Below, in pieces: positions 29,331-51,437 of a DNA stretch of 64,000 nucleotides. Origin of the DNA: Taxawa tesnikishii (nom. ined.) (Eukaryota > Ascomycota > Dothideomycetes > Dothideales); NCBI GenBank assembly GCA_030247885.1, contig JAPDRO010000014.1:1-64000 (forward strand), in the 5' to 3' direction. The notes under the pieces were generated by a model, which had not been told where the DNA came from, made no database searches, and was given only the letters and a program-made list of their open reading frames with translations. Position 1 is the stretch's first letter. Every line of letters starts with the position of its first letter. The translations under genes were made by a program, and so were the position numbers.

Positions 29331-32130
29331 GTTATCTTTCTTCCCTATTTAATATATATATTATAACTACTTAATATAGTAATATTTAAGCTTCTCTTAT
29401 AAGTTTACTTAAACGAACTATTAGCTTTTCTTAAGAGAAACTAAGAATTATTACTAATTAAAAAGGAAGACTTCTTCCTTTTATTTTAGAAAGTATAAAT
29501 AAATTCCTTTAAGGAAATAATAGTACTTAACTCCTTTAAAGTATCTAGTATATTACTACTTAATATAGACGTTATACTTAAATAATTTACTAATATTACT
29601 TCGAATAAGTAAGAGTTATAAAAAAGCTTTACGTTAATACTTAGTACCTTTAACTAAAAGAAGATAAAGCGAATTATTAAGGTAATAGTAAAGGATAATA
29701 CTACTACTAAAGCGTAGAAACTTAGTTACTTATTTTACTTTATTTTAATTTAAAATTAGTTACTTTAATATAAAAATAAGAGCCTTAAAAAGACTCTAAG
29801 TAATAAGAAAAAGTATTAAAAGTATAGTAAGTTTCTTAATCTTTAATAATATAAGAAGTATTATAATAGCGCTATTTTCTAATTACTAAGAAAAGTTAAA
29901 AAGGTATATACTTATTAAATAGCAAAGGAGCGTAAAGAAAAGAAGTAGTAACTCTAAAGAATTAAGTTAGTTAAACTTAAGAAGGCTACTTAACTATAAC
30001 GTAAACTATAAGGAAGCTAACTAGGTAAGGTAACTAGCTACTTAAACGCGACCTTCTTATCTTTATATATTACTACTATTAACTATAAGTACTCCTATAC
30101 CTAGTAAGTCGGCTTATATTAAATCTAATATCTAGAGTATACTCTCTACCTTACGAAAAAGAACTACGCCTCGATTCGATAAGTTACTCGTATATATAGT
30201 ATACCTTATTAAACTCTACGTAATTATATAGTCGAATATAATTCGCGCGCGAGAGTATATAAAATAGAGTAGATTCTCTCGAACATTAAAGAAAGTATAT
30301 TAATATAATAAATTACGCGTCTTATATATACTAGTTTCCCTACTTTACTTACGTTAGTAATATAAATAATTAAGGAAATTCGACGTAGTTATATTTAGTT
30401 ATTAAAGACTTTACGATTATTACTTCGACTAATTAGTAAGAAGTAGCTTAACTACTTTAAGACTTACTATCCTAATATTATAAGTATTTAGACTTATTAA
30501 ATCGAGAGCGCGCGCTTTAATATAATAAGTTATAATATTATAAAGAAGTAATTTAACATAGTAATAAAGCTATTTCTATAGTACTAGTATCCTCTAGAGC
30601 GCGTCTATAATATAGACGAGTTTAGCTTTATAGTTAGAGCGAGTTAGTTATTAAGAGCTTTAGTTAATATTTACAAAGTATTTAGCTAAAAGTAAATTAA
30701 AAACTAGTAAGAGTAAATAACTATAGTTAAGTATATAAGTACTACTAGGGAAGCTATATTACCCTTAATTATCTTTAAAGCTAAATATACTAATATAGCG
30801 TAGATACTTACTAGTATACTATAAGACTAAAGGTTCTTAACTAGTAGTAATAGCTAGACGTTTAATAGCTATAGTTATAAGTAATTAACTATTATTTTCG
30901 AGCTATTAATGTAACTTAATAACCTTACGACGTAGCGACTACTAATTATAGACGACTATAGTAGTTATATTACTATAAAGGTAATCGCCTTCTATATAGA
31001 GAATATAATCGACTTACTTATCTTACTACCTTATTACTTATACGTACTTTAATTACTTAATATTAGCGTCTTTACTTTACTAAAGTACGTACTAGCTTCG
31101 GAGACTAATACTACTTTATAACTCGACTTAAGCTATATATTACGTATAAAATAAACGGAAATATATATTCGAGTAAGAAATAAGGCGCTTACTATATATA
31201 ATATTCTTAATAAATAAAGAGGCGCTAGCCTTAAGCTTCTAAGCCTTATAATAGTACTTAATAAGCTACTTATAAAGCTAACTATTACGAATATATAACC
31301 TTATATACTTCTATAATAACCCGATCTAAATCTCTTACTACTAGATAACTTTCCTTTAAATAGTACTAAATTATATAAAGTAAACGTAGCGCTTAACTCG
31401 ACTATTAAAGCTACGTAGGACTTACCTTCTCTAGTAAAGTAGTATATAGTAAATAAGTTACTTTACTAAAATAACGTATAGTAAGAACGTTATATTACGA
31501 AAGTAACTAAAAGAGTAATAGGAGCTTCTTAATATATAAAAGGCTTAAAAGAAGGGAAAGTAAGTCGTATTAAAGGAAAGGTTTATATTTAGTACTTACG
31601 AAGTACTTAAAATAGCGAAGGTAATAAAAGCGAATTTAGCTATTAAAAAGCTACGTAGACGACTATATAAGCGTATAATTAAGGAAGTACTTAAAGATAA
31701 GGAAGATAAAGTACCTAAAAGTATATATAGTAACTTAGATTTTAACTATATCGTTATTATAGTACGTAGATAGTAATTAAAGCTAGAGAGTTCGTATTTT
31801 AATAGCTAAATACTTTACCTAGCTAGCTTCCTCGCGGTTTACGTTATAAGCTTAAAATAGCTAAGGAAAAGTATATAATAAGAAAGGTAACTAAAGTAAT
31901 TAAAGAAAAGAAAAAGACTAAGAAGGCTAAATAAGTAGCTAAATACGCTTACTAGTAAGAAGCTTAAAACGCTATAAAAGCTCTCTAATTATCCCGAAAG
32001 AGTAAGAGAAAAGCCTTAAGCTTACTTAAGTAAAATATTAAGCGTAGGAAGTAAGTAGTTAATACTATAAGTAATAGGAAGGCTTTAAGTATTATATTAC
32101 TACCTTTACTTATTACTACGCGCCGCGGCT
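29331..32130 (+). mobile_element. Pogo-like transposase tail, interrupted by Fot1 copy D
   Basis: Outside copy D, the sequence just before 29998 and just after 31846 reads, with glutamine in place of TAA/TAG, as a Lys/Ala/Glu-rich coil ending in an AIKALQLSRKSKRKA-like stretch. That matches the charged C-terminal tail common to pogo-type transposases. The body of this element would lie upstream, beyond G. Terminal repeats were not found. Confidence 0.45.
29999..31844 (+). mobile_element. Fot1/pogo-like DNA transposon, copy D (subfamily 2), RIP-mutated; family reference
   Basis: 1,846 bp, TA at 29997-29998 and 31845-31846; the 3' end CTCGCGGTTTACGT is well kept. One transposase frame spans most of the element. 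Its DDE core near 30944-31090 reads IIDDYSSYITIKVIAFYIEN, then LPYYLYVL, then an LLNISVF and LLKYV segment, which line up with the IxDGHGSH, LPPHxxHxLQPLDV and LK positions of Fot1/pogo transposases (Tc1/mariner superfamily, TA target). Most internal stops are TAA or TAG where CAA, CAG or TGG is expected, the RIP pattern. Confidence 0.92.
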
Positions 32131-34785: not shown

Positions 34786-36632
34786 ACGTAAACCGCGGGG
34801 AAGCCGGCCAGGTGGGGTAGCCGGCTACCTAAACGCGACCTTCTCATCTTTATATATTACTACCGTCAACCATGAGTACTCCTATGCCTAGCAAGCCGGC
34901 TTATACTAAATCTAATATCTAGAGTGCACTCTCTACCTTACGAAAAAGGACTACGCCTCGATTCGATAAGTTACTCGTATATATAGTATACCTTACTAAA
35001 CTCTATATAATTATATAGCTAGATATAATTCGCGCGTAAGAGCGTATAAAATAGAGTAGATTCTCTTAAACGCCGAAAAAAGTATATTAGTACGATAGAT
35101 TACGTATCTTATATATACTAGTTTCCTTACTTTACTTACGTTAATAGTATAAATAACTAAGGAGATTTAACGTAGTTACGTTTAACTATTAAAGACTTTA
35201 CGATTATTACTTCGACTAATTAGTAAGAAGTAACTTAACTACTTTAAGACTTACTATCTTAATATTATAAGTATTTAGACTCGTTAAATTAAGAGTATAT
35301 ACTTTAACGTAATAAGTTATAACGTTATAAAGAAGTAATTTAACGTAGTAATAAAGCTATTTCTATAGTACTAATATCTTCTAAAGCGCGTCTATAATAT
35401 AGACGAGTTTAACTTTATAGTTAAAGTAAGTTAGTTATTAAGAGCTTTAGTTAATATTTACGAGGTATTTAACTAAAAGTAAATTAAAGACTAGTAAGAG
35501 TAAATAACTATAATTAAGTATATAAGCGCTACTAGAGAAGTTATACTATCCTTAATTATCTTTAAGGCTAAATATACTAATATAATATAAATACTTACTA
35601 ATATACTATAAGACTAAAAGTTCTTAACTAGTAATAGTAGCTAGACGTTTAATAGCTATAGCTATAAGTAGCTAACTACTATTTTCGAGTTATTAATATA
35701 ACTTAATAACCTTATAATATAGTAACTACTAATTATAGACGGCTATAATAGTTATATTACTATAAAGGTAATCGCCTTCTATATAGGGAATACGATTAAT
35801 TTACTTATCTTACTACCTTATTACTTATATATACTCTAACTACTTAATATTAGTATCTTTACTTTACTAAAGTACGCGCTAACTTTAGAAACTAATACTA
35901 CTTTACGACTCGATATAGGCTATATATTACGTATAAAATAAACGGAGATATATATTCGAGTAAGAAATAAGGCGCTTACTATATATAATATCCTTAGTAA
36001 ATAGAAAGGTACTAGCCTTAAGCTTTTAAGCCTTATAATAATACTTAATAAGTTACTTATAAAGTTAACTATTATAAATATATAACCTTATATACCTCTA
36101 TAATAACCCGATTTAAATCTCTTACTACTAGATAGCTTTCCTTTAAATAGTACTAAATTATATAAAGTAAACGTAGCGCTTAACTCGGCTATTAAAGTTA
36201 CGTAAGACTTACCTTTTTAATAAAGTAATATACGAAGTAAATAAGTCGCTTTACTAAAATAATATATAGTAAGAACGTTATATTACGAAAATAACTAAAA
36301 GAGTAGTAAGAGTTTCTTAATATATAAAAGGCTTAAAAGAAAGGAAAGTAAGTTATATTAAAGGAAAGGTTCGTATTTAGTACTTATAAAGTACTTAAGA
36401 TAGTAAAGGTAGTAAAAGCGAATTTAACTACTAAAAAGCTACGTAAATAACTACGTAAGTATATAATTAAGGAAGTACTTAAAGATAAAGAAGATAAAGT
36501 ACTTAAAAGTATATATAGTAACTTAGATTTTAACTATATTATTATTATAGTACGTAGATAGTAATTAAAGTTAAAGAGTTTATATTCTAATAACTAGATA
36601 CTTTACCTAGTTAACTTCCTCGTAGTTTACGT
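34786..36632 (+). mobile_element. Fot1/pogo-like DNA transposon, copy E (subfamily 2), RIP-mutated
   Basis: 1,847 bp, TA at 34784-34785 and 36633-36634. The first 200 bases are nearly unmutated: TIR ACGTAAACCGCGGGGAAG, then an ATG opening MSTPMPSKPAYTKSNI. The interior is heavily mutated. Closest to B and D. Confidence 0.92.
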
Positions 36633-38189
36633 TATATAATTATATAAAATATTATAAGGAATATTATATATATACTAATAGCCTTATAAATAGAAGGGTA
36701 TTACTTTTCTTTTAAGGTATAAAGTATATTCTAAATATTAGCTTTAGTATAAACTAGTTTACTAGTTATAAAAGTATTTATAATAAGTAGTAATAAAGTT
36801 AAAAGATCGAAGGGTTATATTTTAGTAGTTTATATTATAAAATCCCGGATTATAGTATTAGTAGTAATACTACTAATACTACTCGTACTAATAATACTAC
36901 TTATACTAGACGTTATAGTACTTACTACGTATACTAGTATATATAGTAATTACTATATATACCGATAATTCTAGTATATACTAGTATATTTAACTTATCT
37001 TACTAGGCGAATTATTAGGTAAATTATACTTTAACTTAGTACTACGTATATTTCCGTAAGTTCTAAGTAATAACTTTATTTAGAGCGATTTAATAATACG
37101 TACTAACTCGTCTATATAAACTAATTCGTCTATTTATATTAAGTCGGTTATATATATCGACTCGTCGATATTCGTTAAGTTAGTAATATACTATTATTAA
37201 GTTACTTAAATTAACTAAGTTATACGTTCTAACTTACTAGTATATATTAGCTTATTAGCTTACTTTAACTCGCTAATATATATTAGCCTTCCCTAACGTA
37301 GAATATATAGTATATATAGATTCTAGTAATATATAACGTTAGTATAAGAGCGTAGCCTAGTATATTTATTTTATAATATCTACTTATTTATTAACTCTAT
37401 CCTTACCTTTACTTTAGTCCTTTTCTTCTTAAACTAGGAATCTAGTAACTACTTTCAAATCGCTTTAAAACTATTCTTATTAAACGGGCGATTATCTTTA
37501 CCTTATAGTATAAGTATAAGTCTATTAGCCTTAGCGTAAATACTATATAACTATAAGTACTAGCCTCGTAGTAGTTTTAGTATATTTAACGTCCTTTTTT
37601 AACTCTTACTTATAAAGTACCTTTATAAGTAAAGGTTACTACTTTTAGTATATACTCTAACTACCCTCTAGTTTACTATTGTCCTTAAGTATCTATAGAT
37701 AGTTACGTAATAAATAATAGTAAAAAGATAGCGAACTACTTAATAATTACCGTACTATACTTCCTACTATATTAAACTATTATTTAAGGGAATACTTTAC
37801 TTTAAGTAAGCTCTAAAACTCTTACTTTTATAGTAGCTTTAACTACGTTATTATATCCTAACTCGTTAAGTTATCGTTCGACTCTATATTATTTAACTTA
37901 CGAGGTATAGCGTAGTTTATAGTAGCTTTATAACTAGATTTTAATAGAGAAGACGACTATTTCTTATAAAGACTAACTTTATTTAAATCTTTACTACTAT
38001 TAATTTCCTTACTATTTAAGCTTTCCTTAAAAGTTAGTTTAGTAAGTATATTTACCTATTTTTATATATTCGTTACGTTAACGAATTTATCTATATATAG
38101 GTCCTTCTTAAGGGTCGCTAGTACGGCTTTAGTAAGGTAACTTTAAATTAGTTCTTAACGTTTTAAATATTAAGTTAACTAGGTCCTTT

Positions 38190-41100
38190 ACTTTTCCTCG
38201 AATAGTTTTATTACTTCGTTTAAGTTAAAGTCTAAATATATTAGCTTACTAGTCTTATTAAATTTATACGTTCTAGTAGCTTAGCTATTAAAGAATAACT
38301 ATAAAGTAGTATAGACTAATACTATAAGGAAGGGTAATAGTAGTCGAAATAACTTAACTATTAATAAATAGATACTAGCTTAACTTACTTTAAAGTATAT
38401 AAACTAGATACTCTCTATTATTAAATAACTAGTATACCTCTTAGCTTACGTTCGAATTAGCTTTTAGTATCTAGCGAAGAATAACGTTAGTATACTTTTC
38501 TTATCCTTATACTTAAATAAGGCGTTCGGTATATACTTATAAGCTTATTTCTTCTTAAATATAACGCTATAATACTACGAGTAAACTAGCCTTTTAAGTA
38601 TAGCCTTAATTAAAGTAGTAGTAGTACTCTTACTCTTACGAATAACTTCGCGAAGCTAGTATATACTTAGTATTATACCTATTCCGTCGGTCTTTTAATA
38701 TCTTACCTTAAATCTTATACCTTTATATATAGTTACTAAAATACTCTATAGAGAGTTAGTCTTTAACTTTTTATCTTAGACTCTTACTTACTTACCCTTA
38801 ACTATCTCGAGAAGTATAACTTTTACTTATAAAGTAAGAAATATTAACTATTCGTAGTATTTATTATATATATAAGTAATAAGTTATATACGTACTTTAA
38901 GTATATCTTACGCTAGTCTAGTAGTATTACTTATCCTTTCTTTATATTTACGCTATAGTATTCTAGTTAGTCTAGTATATTACTATCTTACGAGCTACTC
39001 GCTTAACTACTAAATTATAAAGAACTAATATCGATTATATTAACGCTAGCGCTTATTATACTTACGTCTTATTTTCTTTTTTAACTAAAAGGTATTTCCT
39101 TAGAGAATGTAAGTAATAGCGCTACTACTAATAGTATACTTACTTACTTCCTCTTATACTACCTTGGAAAGACTAAAAATATATAACTAGCCTTCGCTTT
39201 TATTAGTACTATTAGGCGTAATATTAGCGTACGTTTATTAAATACGTAGTTACTTATTATATATCTTAAACTCTCTTAGTATTATACTACTAAGATATTA
39301 TACTTATATACTAGTAAGATAGTAGTATATAGACGTAAAGTATTACTTACTTTCTTAGTATTAGTTTAAAGTAATAATAATAAATATAGTATAAGCTTTT
39401 ATTAAACTAGGCGCGTATAGATTTAAGTTAAGTTTAATAGTTTTAGCGTACTAATCGACGTAAGGGAACGTTATCTTTTATAAGGAATTATTAGCTAACG
39501 CGATATTATATAAAGTCTAATTCGCGAAATATAGTTAAGCTAACTAGCGTTTATTTAAAGTAAGCCTAGTAGTTAACTTACTATACTATTATTCGATATA
39601 CGAAGTAGTTCTTTCTACTAGTAGGAAGCTAAGTATAAATATTAGGGCCTAAGTCTTTAGTAATATCTAATAATCTTAACTCTCTAAATACTAGGGTATT
39701 TAATACTACTAATTATATTAACGTTAATATAAGCCGAGCTTTAAGATACTATATAGCGAGTAGTATTACTTAACAAAAGAGACCTAATAGACTTATATTT
39801 AATTAGTTAACTATCTACTTAGTCGACTCGGAAATTAGTAGAGACTTCGCCCTTATTCGACTTAAAATATAAATTATAGAAATTATTAACTTAAGATATA
39901 AGTTACTTATATCGTCGAATTGCTACGAACGATTTAGTAATTTCTTATAAGTTTACGTATTTATAGTAGGTAGTAACGTATTAAAGGACTTAAGTTTCTT
40001 ACCTTTAATTTCTTACTTATATACTTTACTATATCTTTTAAGCCTTAATAGCGCTCCTAGTTAAAATAGTATACTTTTATATAAACTATTTATATAGATA
40101 CTTTCTTCTTTATATAATACTTCCTCGTTTATATACTTTACTTAATTACTTGACGCGACTTAGTAAGGACGAGTAGTAGTTTAATAATATATTTACGTAG
40201 TAGCCTTATATAGTTATAAATCTTATTGTTATTTAATCTATTAGGATTAATCTTCTTATTAGTTCTAGTATTTAGTTTATTTAGATAGTCTTATACGCGT
40301 CTCTTAAATTATACTTTTTATAGTCTAGTAAACTTCTTCGTATAAGCTTTTCTAATACTATTTCTATTAATAATTTATAGCTTCTTTACGACTATCTCTA
40401 GTTAAAATACGTAATAGCTTACTTAGTATTACTACTTAAAAATAAGCGAAAGGAAAGCGTTAATAAGCTAATAACTTTTATAAACTAGCTAGATATATAG
40501 GCCGTTTATAACTCTAAATATTTTAACGTAGTTAGTACTAGTAGTATAATAAAGAAAGTTAAAAGTTACTTCGAGAGCGTCTTATATACTAAGACTACCT
40601 TCTATTACTACTTATTATCTATTAAAGAGTAATCTCTAATCTAGTTATTATCTTATTTAAGGAAATTAGCCTCGCGTTAAAAACTATAGTTAGATTCTAG
40701 TATTAATATAAATATATCCTAGTCTAAATCTTTTATTATAATTACGCTTAAAGAAGTACTATATAGCTAACTACGCGCTAGTTTATAAGGTTAATAAAGC
40801 GCTTTAAAAGTACCGTCCCTTTATATAACTAATATTATTTCTTATTACGTCTTATATTTTATAGTTACTATAAAAGTTTAGGGAGTACTAGTAGATAAAT
40901 AAGTATCGTCTAGTAAGTAGTATTTTAGTTATATATCTTTCTCTTCGTTTACGTACTTTATATCCTTACTCTTAGGAAGTCCTTTACGCCGTCGTTAGAA
41001 GTTTATACTTATATAATATACTAGGTCTCGAAAGAGTACTTAACTCTTCTCCGTCCGTATAATCTTAACTATATTTAGGAAGCAACTTTAAGTCTACTTA

Positions 41101-44100
41101 GACGTAAAGATATACGTAAATATCTCCTTATATATAGCGTTCTTTTTAGAAATCGAGTAGAATATTTACTTAAGTAAGCCTCTTTATATAATCTCGTATT
41201 TTACGCGTATATAAAATTCTTTATAACTATTATTATCTAGACTAAGACCCTCTTAAAGACTACTATATCTAAGTTAACTATCTAGCAACTAAGTAAATAT
41301 AAGTTTAGTAATTTATATTATTATTATTATTCGAGTTATCTTACTTAGAGTAACTAGTTTATTCGAGTTAGTACTATATTAACTAACGGTAAAAGATCGT
41401 AGTTATATCTTATTAAAAAACGAAGTAAATATTAATATAATATAGTTAAATTTATTAATCGTATAGCCTCGTTATGCCGATATATTATATAAGGTATAGT
41501 AGCTTAATATAAAGGGTTACTATTATATATACTACTATATTTAGCCTAGATCTTAATATTCTAAGTTATTATTATATATATATATCCTTATACTTATTAC
41601 CTCGAGTTAATAGAACTACGCTTACGTTATATATAAGTTAACTAAGGTTACTTATATATATACCCTTAGAAAAGCGACGTTAACTTATCGCGCTTCTCTT
41701 TATTATTAAAAAGAATACTTTATAAATATAATAACCTCGTTTAATATTAGCTTCGATAATAGTAATATTTAAGCGTATAGTTCGTATAATTACTTTCCTC
41801 TACTTATATATAATATCTCTATTACTAAATACGCTAAACTATAGTAAATCCGAACGGCTAGTTATTTATATTAACTATAACTTATATACTTACTTTCGTT
41901 ATTATCGTATACGAGCTTATAATACTAATAATTCTCGCTAGGTTAGACTTACCTTTAGGATCGATAGCTAAAGTATAAGGACTTCTTATTAGCCGGGGAC
42001 GTTCTCTTTATTAAGGCGACTATAATAGCGCGTTAATAGTCTAGTTTAAACGGCTATATAGTAAGATATTATCTTTAGTTTAAGGAAATATTTCTATATA
42101 AGTATATATACCTAATATACTAATTAAAACGTTTATTATTATTTCCCTATTTCTTTATTATAAAGCCTATATATTAGCTAATAGCGTAATTATAGTAGTA
42201 TATTATCTATATTAGTCTCTTTATACTTACTATATTATATATTAAGTTATATAGTTTAGCGCGTTTTTAGTATAGTAGATAATATATATTTAGTAAATTA
42301 AGTCGATAAGTTAATACTACTACGTATAAATTGCCTTTCGAATCGCCTTTATCCCTTATATTTATATACTACTATATATAGACTCGCCTTATATAATACG
42401 AGTATATAAAGTAAATAGGAAAGTAATTTATAAGTAACGAGTTAAATAGCGATTTATTTCTACTATTAGCCTTTTAACTTACTAGTAAACCGAGTTTACT
42501 TTATATTTATATATAGGTACCTTATTAGTCTAATTATACTTATCGTTTATCTTATTTATAAATATATATATATATATATTAATAATCTTTCTTACGTTTA
42601 CTACTTCTTTTATTTATTACTATATAAAGCTTTCCTTTTTACTACGTTCTTTTCTTAATTATAAATTACTACGTCTAGTTATATTAGTTACGTATAATAC
42701 TAGTAATATAGTAACTCGTTACTCTACGTATTAACTATACGTTTCTCGGCGATTTACTAACTATCTCGCCTTATATTTTATTTAAACTTCCTTCGACTAT
42801 TACTTACGCGTTACCTTACGCGCTATAAGGCTTCTATTAAAACTCTTTATTTACGCTACTATTAGGAAATACTACTATTTTAAGATCCTTTACTTAGTTA
42901 GTTTAGCTATATACTTAGTACTCGCGTACGTTATTCGCTCTTTAAGCTATTAATCTAGGACTAATAATTAATATCTCTAGATTACTTACTTTACTAACTC
43001 TCTTATTTATTAGCCCTACTACTTCGATTATTTCTTCCTTTATTTTATATTCTAGTTATTATAGTAGTCTATTTTAGAGTATTTAATATATCCGATAATA
43101 TAACTTAAATAAAAGATAGTATTATAATATAGTTACGTACTAAAATAAGTAAGAAGTCTAACTTATTCTTTAAGACGTTCTTTAACTAAAACGTAAATAA
43201 CTTCTACGCTATAGTAACTACTATTATAGATAAATATAAGAGTACTAGTATAAATATAAAAGCCCTTTACCTTAATAATAAGAAACTCTAAATCGAGTAA
43301 CGCTTTAAAGTTAAGAGCTTAATAATAAATAACTTCGCTAATATATTTAAATATTATAGTAAAATGTAACTATAATAGTTTACTAAAAAAGTACTTTATA
43401 GTTTAAATTATACTATAAAAGTTCTAATAGACGTAAAAGGGAGCGTACTTTAAGCGTAAATTATAAAGGTATAGGGAGCCTAAAAGAAAGGAAATAAAGG
43501 TTTAATACTTACTTACTTTACGTTATAGTCTTAGACTTAGTCGAGGAGCCCTATAGTAATATTATCGTTTAACTATTATAACTATAGTCCTCTTAAGTTA
43601 CGTTTATTAAGTTTAAGCCTTAGAGTCGATAACTTTATAAACCTTAACTTTAGTTTATTACGCCCTAGTAATAAAGACGCGATAAATATTAATAACTTAC
43701 TATTTATAGTATATATACTATATAAAATATTTCTTATTATTATAGTTATTAAGTAAACTAGGCTATATCTTTATATTAACTAGAATACCTATTATAGTTA
43801 GACTAGTACGTTCCTTATATTAGATAGAGTTACTTAGTAAGATACGTTTACTAAGTTTCTAAGTATATCGAACTATAAGAATTAGCTAGTATTTTAGTTT
43901 AATCTATAGGCTAGATATATATACTCTCGAGTCGATAATAAGTTTAAGCTTAGTATTATAGTAATATAACTCTAGAAATTCTAGCGTAAAAGGAGTAGTA
44001 TTATCTAGCTCTTTCTTACTCTTAATAAGGATACTATTTAACTTATATTCTACGAAGAAAAAGGTAAAGTTATTACGCTATTCTAAGTAGTATATTACTA

Positions 44101-46960
44101 ATATATTAATAGTTAAGACGCGCTTAGTTAATAACATTTATAATATAGTTATTTAGACTCTAAAAGAGTAACTTATAGAGGATAATTTAGTCTAATAGTA
44201 ACTAGCGAATAAGAATACTTAGTAACTCGTAAATAAGGAAGCTTAGTAACTTATAAATAAGGAAGCCTAGTAACTTACAAATAAGAAAGCTTAGTAACTT
44301 ATAGATAAGGAAGCTTAGTAACTCACAAATAAGGAAGCTTAGTAACTTACGAATAAGGAAACTTAACGTAGTAATAAAGAACGTAATATTAAAGAGACTA
44401 GATAGTCGTAAATAATTCCTACTATATTAAATAATAATATTAAGGTTACCGAAAGCCCTATTATACTCTCTATTAATCTTAGTAAATATAACTACTCGAA
44501 AAATAAGGTACTATCGTCCGCGAAGCTACGCTCTAAGATATAAGAAAGTTTAACTAAAGAAGCCTTAGCGAAGGTAATAAATCTAAAATAAATCGACGTC
44601 GATACTTAGAACGCTATATATAAGTTTTTCGGCTATAACTCTACTAATATATATTTAAGATCTAGCGTATTCTTCCCGGGATAAAAGCGTAGTACTAAGC
44701 TTCTATTATACTAATTCTATATAGTTAAATAGTTTCTAAAGAAGCTACTATAAGGATCTAAATACGTCTTTATTAAATACTTTATAAGTATAAGTAAAAT
44801 AACTATTATCCTTATACTCTTAAAGCTTCTAGTAAAGGTAACTAAAGATAAAGTAATAAGTATCGCGTATCTATTAAATTCTAGCTTCTATTTAAATCCT
44901 AACGCGCTTACTTAAGTTGATAGACTATTACGATATACTTAATTAGGACTTATATTAGTAATTACTCCTACTTACTTATTATCTAACTAGGTTAATAAAT
45001 AGCGTAAGTTTTTTATAGTTATCTTAGAAAAATCTACTAGAGTTAAGATAATTCTAATATTACTAGTTAGCCTATTAATTAATAAGGCTATAAAATCCGA
45101 ATTTAAGGATTATTATAGGCTTAACGATATAGTTAGGCTTAAAGATTTACCGCCTCGAGAGTAGCTAGTAACTACTTATAAATTAGAGGAAGATATACTT
45201 ATAATAATTATAGCTAAAATTCTACTAGAATCTAATACGTTATATAAACCTAAGTTATAATAATCGGAATAGTATATACTTACTACTTAAGTAATTATAA
45301 TATTAAAACTTGTAGTTAAAGTACTAGGAAACTTAAACGTTTATAAAGAAATTTACGCTCGTTAAAGTATCGTCGCATTCGACGAGTACTATATAAATTA
45401 TAACTCTAATTCGTCTATTTAGTTTAAGTTAACGTACCTTCCTAGTAATTTAAATTTTATTTTTATAAGCGAAACTCTATTTCTACTAACGCTTACTTTA
45501 GTTCCTCTTCTTCTTATTACTTACGCTTACTACTATAAACTAAAGTCCGAAATAAAGTTTATAACTATTATAGTAAGTAAATAGACTCTAAGTAACGTAT
45601 ATACTACGAATCTACTATTTCGACTAAACCTTACTTAAGTAAAGTAACGCGCTTTATTTCGAATTAGCTTTATATTAATTACTTAAAGTATAGCGATTAT
45701 CGATAAGGCTTAAAATAAGAAGAATAAACTCTCTAATATAATCGCTAAATTAGTATAAGATAAAGAGGATAAAGAAGATAAAGAAGGACGTAATAGTAAT
45801 AATAAGTAAGATACCCTCCTAGATAGTATTTACGTCGAGTTAATACTAGAGTTATAACGTATAATATAAGTCGTAGTAAAGGGCGCTAAAAAGTATATAA
45901 TTTACTTCCTTATAAAGCTTTAATAGTAAGTCGATTTAAATTCCGAGGGCTAACTAGTATTAGACTTCCTACTATATACTATATAGGATTAATATTTTAA
46001 TATTAATAAGAAGTTTCGTCGTAATAGCCTAGGGGATAAATAGTTGTAATTAGTAAAGAAAGTCTAAACGAAGACTAATAAATACTTTAAAGCTTAAATA
46101 AAGTAGCTATTCTTTTAAATTATTCGTAAATTTTATATTTAGATAATATTCCCTTATTTATATACTCTAATAGAAAACGATAATAAGATAAAGGCCGAGC
46201 TAAATAAAATAGACTATAACGACGTAGTAAGGATTTTAAAGGGCGTATAAAATTCTATATTATAAAGCTATATATACGAGATCGATTAACTCCCTTTAAT
46301 AATAATATTAAAGGATATAATCGCGTAAATACGTAGTTAACTTAACTTCTTTAAGAGACTATAAAAGATTATTATTATAGCTTTTATACTATTTAACGTT
46401 ATAGTAGTTTATATAGTAAGTAGTTACTACTTATATATACTAATAAACTACTAATACTATTATAGTACTTACTTTAGCTAGTAGGGTAGCTAAACTATAT
46501 AGTAATTAATAATAAGAAGGACATCGTACTTGTCGCTTTATAGAATAGTTAAACCGAGTGTAATAAGTAAATTACTAACTTTAAAACTATAACCCCTAGC
46601 TATAAAGAATAGCCTAGTATTATAGTTACCTTAGCGATATAAATTATAGTAAGCTTATCCCTCGACTTAGTAGACGTAGTAATTATCGTCGATCCCGAGT
46701 TTAATATAGTAAAGGTTAAGTAAGTTATAGCTAGAGTAAGACGTATAAGGCTTACGTAAAAGGCTCCTTATACTAAAGGGTTTCGTTTAATATATAGTAC
46801 TTTATAATATAACCTTTAGGATTAGATATATAAGCGCTAAAATTTAGCTACTTATATTCGCGATTAAGTATATTATATAGTTAGATAGACTAGCTATAGT
46901 AGTAATTAAATAAGTACCTAGAGCGTAAATAGTACTTAAAAGAAGATATTATAAAATAGT
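38190..46960 (+). pseudogene. Very long RIP-mutated ORF in the 14-kb element with helicase-like C-terminus
   Basis: Reading TAA/TAG as lost glutamine codons, one frame stays open from about 38.2 kb to about 46.5 kb, implying an ancestral protein near 2,800 residues. Most of it I cannot assign. An FDEY at 45378-45389 could be a helicase DEAH-like box. After a frame change near 46.5 kb, a segment reads SLSLDLVDVVIIVDPEFN (46652-46705) and ARVRRIR (46729-46749), matching the last motifs of SF2/SNF2-type helicases (Gl.l..advvi.dp.wn and the arginine-finger motif). The stop density in this frame (about 10%) is clearly lower than in the other frame I tested (about 20%). Confidence 0.5.
44207..44357 (+). 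repeat. 24-bp tandem repeat inside the long ORF, about six units
   Basis: Units resembling AAATAAGGAAGCCTAGTAAC plus four bases repeat about six times in frame, encoding an eight-residue repeat K(Q)GSLVTY. Units differ mostly by RIP-type transitions. In-frame length supports the frame being the real ancestral one. Confidence 0.8.
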
Positions 46961-48599
46961 ATAAAGGATCCCTTATATTTAGCGATATAATTCGCTAGGT
47001 CTTATACTTAGTTTTACTTCTTTCTTTACGATTATAAAGGTAAATAAATATAATGTTATTAGCTTTCTTATACCCTTTACTTTATTCGTAATATATTATA
47101 GTTCTTACTACGAACTATAAGTTATTTATAATTCGAGAGTTATTAAATAAGTCGCAAGGCGACTTATATACTTATAGTAATTCTTTAGGGGTATAGAGAT
47201 AGGACGTAAGAAGAAATAATCTAGAGTAGATTTAGACGCGCTAAATTATAATACGAATTATAATACGAATTAGTAAAAGACGAATTAGTAAAAGGCGAAT
47301 CGAAAGATTTAATTTAATTTAATTAAGCGCCTAGGCGTTTAGAGTTAACTCTCTTTAGCTTATATATATACGACTTTAATATAATAGTAAATATATACTA
47401 CTACTATAGTTCGACTATATACTTATAGTATATATAGACGCGTATATAAACAATTATACGGCCTACGGATATATATTACTACGTATAGAGTACGCTATTT
47501 ATATAACCCTTAATATATAACTATTAGTATAAAAGATACTACTCGTTTACTAATAACTAATATATTAACTAACATTATAAATAGAGAAATAGTTATACTA
47601 TAAATTAAAGATATACTATAGTTATAGTTTAATTATATTAACGAAGACTATAATATATAAAACGTAACTAGCGTAACTATAAATAATAGTAAGTTTAAAG
47701 AACTACTAAACGTTTTTTAAGACGTTACTTATAACTTACTAACTATAAAAGAAGAAAATAACTTATATAGAAATATACTATAGAGTTTTATATTAAAGGA
47801 CAAACGAGATAGTATTAGAACTAGTAGCTTTATAGCTTATAATAGTAAGAGTAAATTGTCGTCGTTTACCTTATATATAGAAAGTAAAACGAGGACGTTT
47901 AAAGAAGTTATAAGGAAAGTAGTAAGTAGAGAAGTAAATAAGTAAGTAGTATTATATATCGATATTATTTCTCTAGGTTTTAATATAAATATATATATAC
48001 GCCTCTCGTATTTACGAACTTAAAATAACTTACTAGCTTTACTAGTAATATAGATATTATATTCGCGAACTAGCTATACTAGGAAAATATATTTAAAAAC
48101 GTAATTACTCGCTTAATACGTAAACTAAGGCTATATGCGATTACGTAACATTTTAGCTAGCGTTTAGTAGCTAAACTCGAAGAGAAGATAGTTATAATAG
48201 GAAAAAGAAGAAACGTTATATAATAAAATATCTAGCCTTTTACGCTACCTTCGACGAATATATTATAAGGGACTAAAAGATACTACTTTCGATATAAACG
48301 AGTCGAAGACGTAATTCGGTTCTTCTTAAGGTATCTTAGTTTTAGTAATAACTTTTAATTTTCTCCTTACTAGATATAAATAAGTAATAGAAACGCGCGT
48401 AAAGTATATAATAAGATAGCTTCGACTAATTAGTAATAAGATACTTAAGAGTAGCTTAACTATAATAATACTATAATTATACTATTAATTATATCTACTA
48501 ATAAGATATAAGTAACGAACTATTAGGGAAATTAATTAGCTTATTTAATATACCTTATTATAAGTAACCTTATAGTAGATATATAGAACTTTAACTAAA

Positions 48600-49720
48600 G
48601 GCCTAGATTTATACTTTTTACTTTAATCTTAATAGTAAAAGAAAAGGATATTATTACTCGAGTTCGTATATTTTATAATTATCTTAAAGTCCTATTCGAC
48701 TTTATTAAGGAAATCCTATATAATAGTAATAGAGAGTTACTATATAGTAACGGATAGACGCGTTAGTACTTCCCTATTCTCGCTATAATAACTCTAGACT
48801 ATAAAGAGTAAGCCTAAGTAATAGAGGTTAAGAGTAGTTAATAATATACTATATATAGTATACGTCTAAGTAATCGAGAGAACCTCGAAGTATAGGCTCC
48901 CTAGAGGATATATAAGGAGACTTAATAGTAAATTAGTTACTAATAAATAAACCCTACTAACTATAACTAAGAGGACTAAGTATATAATATCGACTCGTTT
49001 ACTTTTAACTATTTATAAGTAAATATATACGTAATAATAATAGTTAATATCTTATACTAGCTACTTAAGGGCGTACTTAATTACGTATAGTAATAGTTAA
49101 TTACTTTACTAGAGGACTTACTTTTTAAAAGGTATAGCAAAATATATAAGGTAGTAATTAAAGAAGCTAAATAGCGTAAAATACGATTTTAAGGTAAAAT
49201 ATTACTAAAGGACTTCGTCGTAAATCTTATTAATAAGCGTTTTATAATAGTCTTACTATACTATAGCTTACATATATTCGAGTAGTTATTAAGTAAAAGA
49301 TAAATAATAAGGAAAGAGCTTAAGAGTATCTTACGATAGTTACTACTAGTATTTACTTTATTCTTAAAGGAAGCTAGAGCTATAGAGATAATTCTATTTA
49401 TACGTATAGTCGTCGACTTTATCTTACTTTCGCTCTATTATAGTTATAATAATAATACCCTCCGCTATATAACGTTAGCGCTATTTCGTATAAACTAATA
49501 TAAGGAAATATTCCGAAGGTATTAGTCTAATATAATAAAAGACATAAAAGGCTATTTTAACTTCTTTAAATAGTATATAATAATATATTATACGGATATA
49601 ATTAAACGACTCGAATTAGCGCTAGGACTTAATATAGGCTATAATAAGTATAACTATATAACGTTTATTAAGTAAAAGTATAAGCGTACTAATAGGAAGG
49701 AAGGCTAAGAAAATTAACTT
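48600..49720 (+). pseudogene. Plavaka-type transposase, core region, RIP-mutated
   Basis: With TAA/TAG read as Q or W, the frame gives SNGWTRQYFPILA..LDYKEQ (48750-48810), VNIYVIIIVNILYQLLKG and RFQGK, then VVDFILLSLYYSYNNNTLRY, ALFRINQYKEIFR, KGYFNFFKQY..YTDIIKR and KRTNRKE up to about 49710. These match in order the conserved blocks of fungal Plavaka transposases (PDG..R..PILA..DYPEQ, DI.HQL.KGV, F..WTG, DF...Y..H...TL..L..AL..FH..K.IF, G.FN.PK.H...HY, NK+.). Plavaka belongs to the CACTA/KDZ-like DNA transposons. The zone 46960-48600 upstream should hold its N-terminus, which I could not align. Confidence 0.72.
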
Positions 49721-51163
49721 ACTATATAGAACGATTATAATCTAAGTATAACTATCGAATTTAATATTAAACTATACTTACGTAACCTTACTATAGTAGA
49801 GAAGATAAAAGAAGTAAATAAACTAGTAAGGCTAACTAAGGTAGTTAATATAAAGCGTTATTTTAAGTAGCTACTAATAGCGTAACTAAAACTATATATA
49901 GCGCGAGAGAAATAGTAATAAGTTAACGAAATATAAATACTCCTTAAGCTTATAGTTAGTATTATCTTTTAATAAGCGTTAACTATATTTATACGCGAAT
50001 TAAGATTACTAGAAGCTAGTACTACTTAAGCTAGTATATACGATTTTAATTAGTTAGAAGAAGACGACTTATAAATATTACTATATTAAGTATAGTTTTA
50101 CCCCTTATTATAGTATAAAAAAGCTACTAGTAAAGATCCTAATAATCCCGATAGTACTAAATATAATATAGTTAGATACGCGCTAAACTAGCAAAATATT
50201 AATAGTAACGTAAGATATAATTAAATATAAGTATAAGAGTACGTAATAGTTACTTTCGAGTCGTATAACGATTTAGTAAATACTATATCCTAAGTAGCGT
50301 TTAATAGACGTTTACTAGCGTACTTATAACTTATCGTTACTATAAAAGATAAGTAACGTAACAAAAATAGTAATATAACTACGTAGAGATATATAGGTAC
50401 GTTAGTTAATTTATATATATTTAAGAACTTATATAGCTACGTAGATACTATATATAAGATAACTATTATTAAGTTAATACTACTATTACCTTAGAGAGAC
50501 TTATAACGCTTAAGTAAACGAAGAATATATCCCTTAACTAGTATTTACTATAGTATCTACGTAGTATCTACGTTAGTACTATAAAATAATAAGAGTAGTA
50601 AAATATATATTAATAATACTACTAATTAAGAGACGTATAATTTCCTATAAAACGTAAACTAAGAAGAAAAAGTAACTCGAATAACTATTAACTCGAGGAA
50701 CGCTTATATAAGAATAGTAAAGGTTATAATATACTAAAGAGCTAAATACTACTTATAAGTAAGATAACCTTAGTATTTATTAAATTATTAACTTACTTAC
50801 TAAACGAATTATAAGGGTAGCGACTTACGTAGTCTTATATATAGCTCGTATATTAAACGACTTATATATAGTAAGGAGATAGTAGGCTATAGTTAAGTTA
50901 GTAGCCAATTTAGTTAACAATTTAGTTAATAATTTATAGACTAGGCGATAAATAAGTCTATAGGAAGAGAGTTATTAATTTACTTTATATAAAGTTATTA
51001 TAATAATATTTCTTATAATATAGTATAGTCTCGCATAACGTAGTATATATTTATATAACGTAGTAAGCGTAGTAAGCGTAGTATACCTAGTATATACGGT
51101 ACGATTATTTGTACTATACTTACTACTAATACTACGATCCGAGATTTCGTAACGTATTACTTT

Positions 51164-51437
51164 ACTTAATTTACTACCTTATAGTTTACGTTATAGTAAT
51201 TTAAATAATTTTCCGTATTATAGGAGATACGCGTAGTAATATAAGAATAGGACGTATAGGTTCGATAAGTATAAAACGCGAAGCGCGTTATTGACGCGGC
51301 TTTATAGTTGCCCAATCCTAGTCTCCAATCCTAGTACAAAATTTCCTAATTCGCTTAGCATCAACCCCGTGCTTTACCGAATTCGGCTCAATCTGGCTCC
51401 GATTCCAGGCGATCGGAGGTGTCCTATCAGTTAGGGT
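51164..51437. other. Boundary between 14-kb element and gene island
   Basis: Contains a Fot1-like 3' terminal fragment at about 51172-51193. RIP signature fades between 51200 and 51300, then normal composition begins. Confidence 0.6.

Follow-up and report, generated by a model that had tools for sequence, protein, structure and literature searches.

The 64,000-nucleotide stretch of Taxawa tesnikishii (nom. ined.) DNA analyzed here (contig JAPDRO010000014.1, positions 1 to 64,000; hereafter, the window) carries at 36833–51154 a copy of a DNA transposon that was destroyed by repeat-induced point mutation (RIP). As judged from sequence, this copy is probably a RIP-inactivated member of an autonomous four-gene Plavaka (CACTA/EnSpm-like, DDE) transposon family, into which an SNF2 ATPase gene and genes for regulatory proteins are built. 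The genome searched comprises 29.4 Mb in 34 contigs, the window being the first 64 kb of contig C6, and the match counts from genome searches are lower bounds. Read from the genome, the element has paired ends, a 2-bp target site duplication (TSD), many copies, four genes, and a conserved gene set in a diverged second family.

The window copy (C6) is bounded by two terminal inverted repeats (TIRs) of 35 bp (left, 36833–36867, + strand; right, 51120–51154, − strand), which are flanked by the target site duplication TA (36831–36832 and 51155–51156). An initial annotation of the window, made without database searches, had placed inverted ends approximately 14.3 kb apart at 36836 and 51163; the ends are real, with the left limit lying 3 bp further out and the right limit 9 bp further in. 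The left TIR reads CGTCACGAAATCCCGG... in un-RIPed copies, whose ends read CGTCACGAAATCCCGGATCG..., and the element termini are CGTCACG...CGTGACG. In the un-RIPed copy C2, the two ends agree at 31 of 35 bp, the first 20 bp being identical.

As the initial annotation had proposed, the ends were used to find other copies. With the window included in both counts, the left end (365 bp) gave 15 places at which at least 336 bases matched and the right end (464 bp) gave 12 at which at least 435 bases matched; at least 11 copies in the genome have two ends in register. Seven of these copies (C6, C12, C24a from 19.5 kb, C1c at 1.69 Mb, C30, C2, and C11i) are 14.3–14.4 kb long; the other four (C24b at 144–161 kb, −; C1b at 127–147 kb, −; C9; and the outer copy C11o, which contains C11i) are longer. 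The 2-bp flanks are identical on both sides in 10 of the 11 copies (TA in 7, AA in 2, and CT in 1). For the empty sites, the flanks of each copy were joined by script and compared with a subset of the genome DNA under a single junction-spanning cut-off. Uninterrupted sequences that matched without a gap at the junction and with a single copy of the dinucleotide were found for C12, C24a, C1c, C11i, C11o, and C9; the matches for C6 were weaker (70–82% identity), those for C24b and C30 were gapped, and in this subset C2 and C1b had no match above the cut-off. By its paired ends, identical 2-bp flanks, and empty-site matches, the element is a TIR transposon with a 2-bp duplication. A RIPed repeat lies to the left of the window copy in two direct copies 4.79 kb apart (30000–31750 and 34787–36535), and the element seems to have been inserted into a further copy of this repeat because similar sequence occurs at its right flank (51158–51212).

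Nested insertions occur in this family: C11i is inserted in another copy of the same element, and C12 lies antisense in the SNF2-gene sequence of another copy. They lend some plausibility to a composite origin, a possibility raised at first; the helicase-like frame would then belong to a separate element that had entered a Plavaka element. Against this origin, SNF2 matches are present in all 11 two-ended copies, and in an end-to-end alignment of seven copies the only gaps of at least 15 bp come from a length difference in a tandem repeat (described below). These findings refute the composite explanation, which retains a negligible probability. Neither outcome that the initial annotation had named as refuting its reading was observed, the ends being common to other copies and the SNF2 gene being present in all two-ended ones.

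Much of the window is AT-rich and nearly devoid of CA and TG dinucleotides, which is the mark of RIP. From C2 to the window copy (~14.3 kb), 3725 of 3728 changes are of the RIP type (1891 C>T, 1834 G>A), leaving only 3 others. The changed fraction of cytosines is 99% in CA, 54% in CG, 25% in CC, and 21% in CT. Each of the six frames of the window copy contains 482–587 stops, and two of these frames gave no Pfam match when scanned with stops read as residues. Little or no RIP is seen in 3 of the 11 two-ended copies (C2, C30, and C11i), for which the GC content of the surrounding stretches, copies included, is 0.46–0.52 and many CA and TG dinucleotides are left. The family is recent because C2 and the window copy were nearly identical when RIP struck.

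The gene content was read directly in C2, and the window coordinates were mapped from it. On the + strand, the Pfam scans covered all three frames of C2 from end to end; on the − strand, they covered the three frames of the left half. The splice models are predictions, in which exons were kept only with support from open frames, splice sites, Pfam, or cross-family matches. The profile search that the initial annotation had proposed for its two frames, fruitless in the RIPed window, returned Plavaka, SNF2, and DUF6532 in C2. The gene order is DUF6532 (−), B (−), SNF2 (+), and transposase (+), and all four genes are RIP-broken in the window. A single + strand model of ~3,600 aa, which a gene finder with loose introns produced in C2, was not kept.

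The transposase gene (47528–50737, +; exons 47528–47941 and 48046–50737) encodes the Plavaka domain PF18759 at approximately 48158–49099. The spliced C2 model matches profile positions 1–325 of 325 with E = 3.1e-73 (247 bits versus a cut-off of 26.3) and the unspliced C2 frame matches with E = 1.4e-72, in agreement with the type initially assigned. The residues D, D, and E (the E in GHGEHNH) and the motifs CTIC and HVMTH were recognized by eye in the C2 translation. A possible zinc-finger exon of the transposase (47374–47507, +; predicted splicing) precedes these exons, with a weak match to PF23320 (19.3 bits versus a cut-off of 28).

The helicase had rightly been assigned to the SNF2 type, its extent less so. 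The SNF2 gene (43061–46984, +) has ~1225 codons in six exons (43061–43247, 43311–44063, 44113–45795, 45850–46415, 46466–46742, and 46798–46984), not a single frame of ~2,800 codons, and the 6 kb to its left are occupied by two opposite-strand genes (DUF6532 and B), which the initial annotation had missed; the frame initially described corresponds to the SNF2 gene together with the stretch of these two genes. The protein matches PF00176 with E = 2.5e-10 (40.4 bits versus a cut-off of 24.9); Helicase_C (PF00271) scores 24.5 bits versus 23.5 in the unspliced frame and 22.3, slightly below the cut-off, in the spliced protein. The C2 protein has GMGKT, DEYH, SGTP, and QVMARVR at the places of helicase motifs, which include Walker A, Walker B, and motif VI. 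The PDB search ranks the remodeller ALC1 first, but weakly (E = 0.0036; no individual stretch reaches significance by itself), so the protein is a distant member of the family. A tandem repeat of 24 bp (8 aa, ADEEAQRL-like) occupies 44172–44387 (+) of the gene. Element copies differ in the length of this repeat by whole 24-bp units; measured against C30, the gaps are 72, 96, and 120 bp.

The DUF6532 gene (37756–39095, −) encodes a protein of 413 aa in three exons (37756–38445, 38494–38655, and 38707–39095), of which the limits of exon 2 and the start codon were placed by the same offset from the un-RIPed copy. The C2 protein matches PF20149 with E = 1.5e-9 (38.4 bits versus a cut-off of 24), and the window matches lie between 38026 and 39092. 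Gene B (40506–41432, −) encodes a single-exon protein of 308 aa, a C2 frame without a Pfam match; the B query used in one Pfam scan and in the genome and PDB searches also contained non-B residues (the first 11 and residues 257–342).

SNF2, DUF6532, and B are each matched in 11 of the 11 two-ended copies. Genome-wide, the Plavaka profile gave 17 matches in 16 places (one being split), and 15 of the 17 matches (14 of the 16 places) have an SNF2 homologue on the same strand, no more than 6 kb upstream; the 15 include C10:501343, a tandem duplicate whose SNF2 match is also that of its neighbour. There are 2 exceptions: C29:739078 lies near a family-1 right end with the nearest same-strand SNF2 match 62 kb off, and at C11:680923 the DNA alignment to its family covers the SNF2 region, where the protein search reported no match.

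DNA alignment divides the Plavaka places into three families, with the window copy in family 1. Family 2 (C10, C18, and C22; ~14.8 kb) shows the same succession of DUF6532, B, SNF2, and Plavaka, each on the same strand as in family 1, with 27–34% protein identity to family 1 in the longest matches (32–33% for B). Two of its members, C18:10580–29455 and C22:52209–71146, share ~18.9 kb including the flanks and, because the flanks are shared, probably represent one insertion plus a segmental duplication. Family 3 contains SNF2 and Plavaka; in two places, B is weakly matched as well (27%, 92 aa). The diverged Plavaka families show an SNF2 identity of 27–29%. In the RIPed relatives, the Walker A place is GLSKT or GLGKT in 4 of 4, and the DEYH place is DEFY in two, NEFY in one, and DKFY in one; a change from H to Y is the one expected of RIP. 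Matches to the DUF6532 profile are confined to the family-1 element (3, of which 2 exceed the cut-off), and the protein search adds the family-2 relatives. On these sequence comparisons, the transposase–SNF2 pairing is old.

In the family-3 element at C10:490000–504650, the Plavaka-bearing 4.1 kb is tandemly duplicated; the stretch 500507–504650 aligns to a stretch of the other copies that is also matched by part of 491678–500507.

The age of the pairing bears on the idea that the helicase is passenger cargo captured once from a host. In favour of this idea, large Plavaka-flanked gene clusters are described for Amoebidium in passages of PMC11244446, and the element itself holds one possible host-gene fragment: an open frame of 116 aa in C2 (40141–40488, −), which over 79 aa has 48% identity with an intact host frame of 468 codons (C1:799837–800073) and is matched in many family-1 copies. 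This frame has no match among those listed in families 2 and 3. We take the host frame to resemble a dynamin-type stalk; Pfam gave no match for its 199-aa piece. The diverged Plavaka families argue against cargo, recent cargo in particular, because they have the SNF2 gene at the same place, upstream of the transposase gene and in the same orientation. The other SNF2 places of the genome (~26) fit PF00176 better (best exon at least 63 bits versus 41 bits for the element gene), and all of them are more than 100 kb away from any listed Plavaka match; there is thus no sign of a recent capture from this host. We consider a passenger origin improbable and disfavour it.

Kept beside the transposase gene through deep divergence, the SNF2 gene most likely has its role in transposition itself or in expression within closed chromatin. 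In the mechanism that we propose, the DDE transposase, perhaps with guidance from a zinc finger, would cut the CGTCACG...CGTGACG ends and insert the element with a 2-bp duplication, mostly of TA. The SNF2 ATPase of the element would remodel or clear nucleosomes, which would permit expression of the element and cutting of its ends or would open access to target DNA. The setting would be the AT-rich, presumably silenced chromatin that is home to most copies. DUF6532, B, or the transposase may bind CGANTCG arrays at the ends and between the genes (described below) as regulator and recruiter, and the host would then destroy most copies by RIP.

The main rival of this chromatin reading, to which we give an appreciable minority share of the probability, makes the SNF2 ATPase a direct part of the transposition machine, acting in target choice or in disassembly of the strand-transfer complex, with silencing not involved; it would be comparable to the ATPase regulators of bacterial transposons. 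The SNF2 family consists mostly of chromatin and DNA–protein remodellers, and that the protein is of this kind speaks against the rival. The linkage and co-orientation of the SNF2 and transposase genes in three families agree with it, as does the existence of other helicase-encoding DNA transposons, namely, AcademH and KolobokH (passages of PMC10799480) and Helitron (passages of PMC12730594). The present evidence does not separate the direct role from the chromatin reading.

A palindrome, CGANTCG, is a candidate binding site for a protein of the element. The C2 copy contains 60 occurrences versus 6.0 expected under a first-order model (maximum 12 in 30 simulations), and CGANTCG is the most enriched of the 256 palindromic patterns tested in C2. 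Its density is 4.2 per kb in the element versus 0 to 0.5 per kb in four host stretches of the window. The occurrences form clusters at both ends and between the genes: 19 of the 60 lie in the terminal 500 bp of either side (p ~1e-8) and 36 of the 60 lie outside the gene models (p ~7e-6), where the p-values are descriptive because the motif was chosen after inspection of the ends. The commonest spacings are 12, 24, and 18 bp, and six occurrences sit in the 24-bp tandem repeat of the SNF2 gene. The left subterminal region (36833–37280) corresponds to an array, seen in C2, of CGANTCG palindromes together with TACCAC/GTGGTA repeats. The RIPed window copy has 9 occurrences versus 1.2 expected.

The arrays in the noncoding parts of the element invite a further alternative, in which SNF2, DUF6532, and B would form an anti-silencing module directed against host methylation, RIP, or heterochromatin, parallel to TET/JBP and to VANC. 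The TET/JBP profile PF12851 has no match genome-wide at E ≤ 0.1, a search in which a RIPed gene could be missed, nor in the C2 Pfam scans; an element of this genome would consequently need a different route. A precedent for anti-silencing exists in VANC of the plant VANDAL transposons (PMC10398659). Against such a module, only three of the 11 two-ended copies have escaped RIP wholly or largely, and we consider it rather doubtful. The specific version in which DUF6532 and/or B bind the CGANTCG arrays, recruit the SNF2 remodeller, and open the element's own silenced chromatin, as a fungal counterpart of VANC or TET/JBP made of different parts, is tentative to the same degree.

Several observations weigh against an autonomous four-gene element with a built-in remodeller and regulators: (i) copy C30 has three extra bases at the right junction, followed by an apparent repeat of AC; (ii) alignment limits were found for family 2, with no convincing TIR at its termini; (iii) no DUF6532 match is listed for family 3, so the full four-gene set occurs in two families only; (iv) we infer the remodelling role of the SNF2 protein solely from its membership in the family, which is distant (40 bits; PDB E = 0.0036); (v) the PDB search gave no convincing match for DUF6532 and B, and no search result ties either to DNA binding; (vi) the CGANTCG excess is unclear in the RIPed families 2 (5 versus 2.1) and 3 (4 versus 3.3); and (vii) transversions by codon position among seven family-1 copies were far too few for a test of selection.

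Elsewhere in the window, two adjacent frames at the start of contig C6 (1439–5872, −) encode a DEAD/Helicase_C protein (893 aa) and an OrsD-domain protein (495 aa). We take the two together to resemble a subtelomeric RecQ-like helicase gene, and the window may therefore adjoin a telomere. The un-RIPed right part of the window encodes an FG-GAP repeat protein (PF13517; 60037–61116, −), with weaker overlapping matches to profiles of similar repeats.

The usual view of cut-and-paste transposons is that they require hardly more than a transposase and rely on the host for access to chromatin. The conserved transposase–SNF2 pairing indicates that a chromatin or DNA motor travels with the transposon in at least one lineage, and it suggests that some transposons carry their own chromatin machinery when they move. 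Intact and RIP-destroyed copies, near-identical before RIP, make it directly testable how such an element escapes or meets silencing. The element also gives a functional context to DUF6532, a Pfam domain of unknown function.

The element was compared with other groups of large or helicase-bearing transposons. Starship elements carry a DUF3435 tyrosine-recombinase captain; no DUF3435 match at E ≤ 1 was found in the C2 Pfam scans (+ frames of the whole copy, − frames of the left half), and membership in Starship was rejected. Membership in Academ/AcademH was rejected because Plavaka was the only transposase profile matched in the same C2 scans, and membership among TET+ transposons was rejected because the genome-wide search at E ≤ 0.1 and the C2 scans gave no TET/JBP match. 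In plant CACTA/En-Spm elements, the termini of which are CACTA, subterminal motif arrays are bound by a second element-encoded protein, TNPA, and we know of no SNF2 gene in them. Their transposase clade is related to that of the element (passages of PMC12730594). AcademH and KolobokH are likewise DNA transposons with a helicase gene, and their transposase superfamilies differ from Plavaka. The Plavaka "giant repeats" of Amoebidium are likewise very large units with a Plavaka transposase; by contrast, the available passages (PMC11244446) describe tandem gene clusters of up to 50 kb with many tyrosine recombinases, not a fixed four-gene SNF2 unit.

In the literature searched (Plavaka, SNF2, CACTA, DUF6532, and PF18759; partial coverage), we found no SNF2 gene in a Plavaka element, in line with the initial impression that the pairing was unfamiliar. 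The word SNF2 occurs 0 times in the main text of PMC12730594, and in the passages of PMC8290104 helicase occurs only in the title of a reference. The words Plavaka and helicase both occur in PMC12633428, PMC6396904, and PMC7473861. Passages of PMC8955403 name Plavaka and DUF6532 together among domains in two Ganoderma species, which is only a hint. According to passages of Kojima 2025 (PMC12730594), the Plavaka/CMCT clade has a C(2)C and H(3–4)H motif and a TSD of 2–5 bp (2–3 bp for Plavaka). The element has C(2)C and H(3–4)H between the second D and the last E, together with a 2-bp TSD. Known Plavaka elements likewise combine the Plavaka domain and short TIRs with a 2-bp TSD and a D-D-E triad that has C(2)C and H(3)H (same passages). 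These passages give the termini as TGT..ACA for PlavakaA and CATCA..TGATG for PlavakaB, neither of which fits the element, and they describe an extra gene, TET/JBP, in some known Plavaka families, a gene that also occurs in fungal KDZ elements. Unlike these Plavaka families, the element carries SNF2, DUF6532, and B. With termini of neither published type and a gene set that we have not found described, the element is a Plavaka transposon by its profile match, catalytic motif, and TSD.

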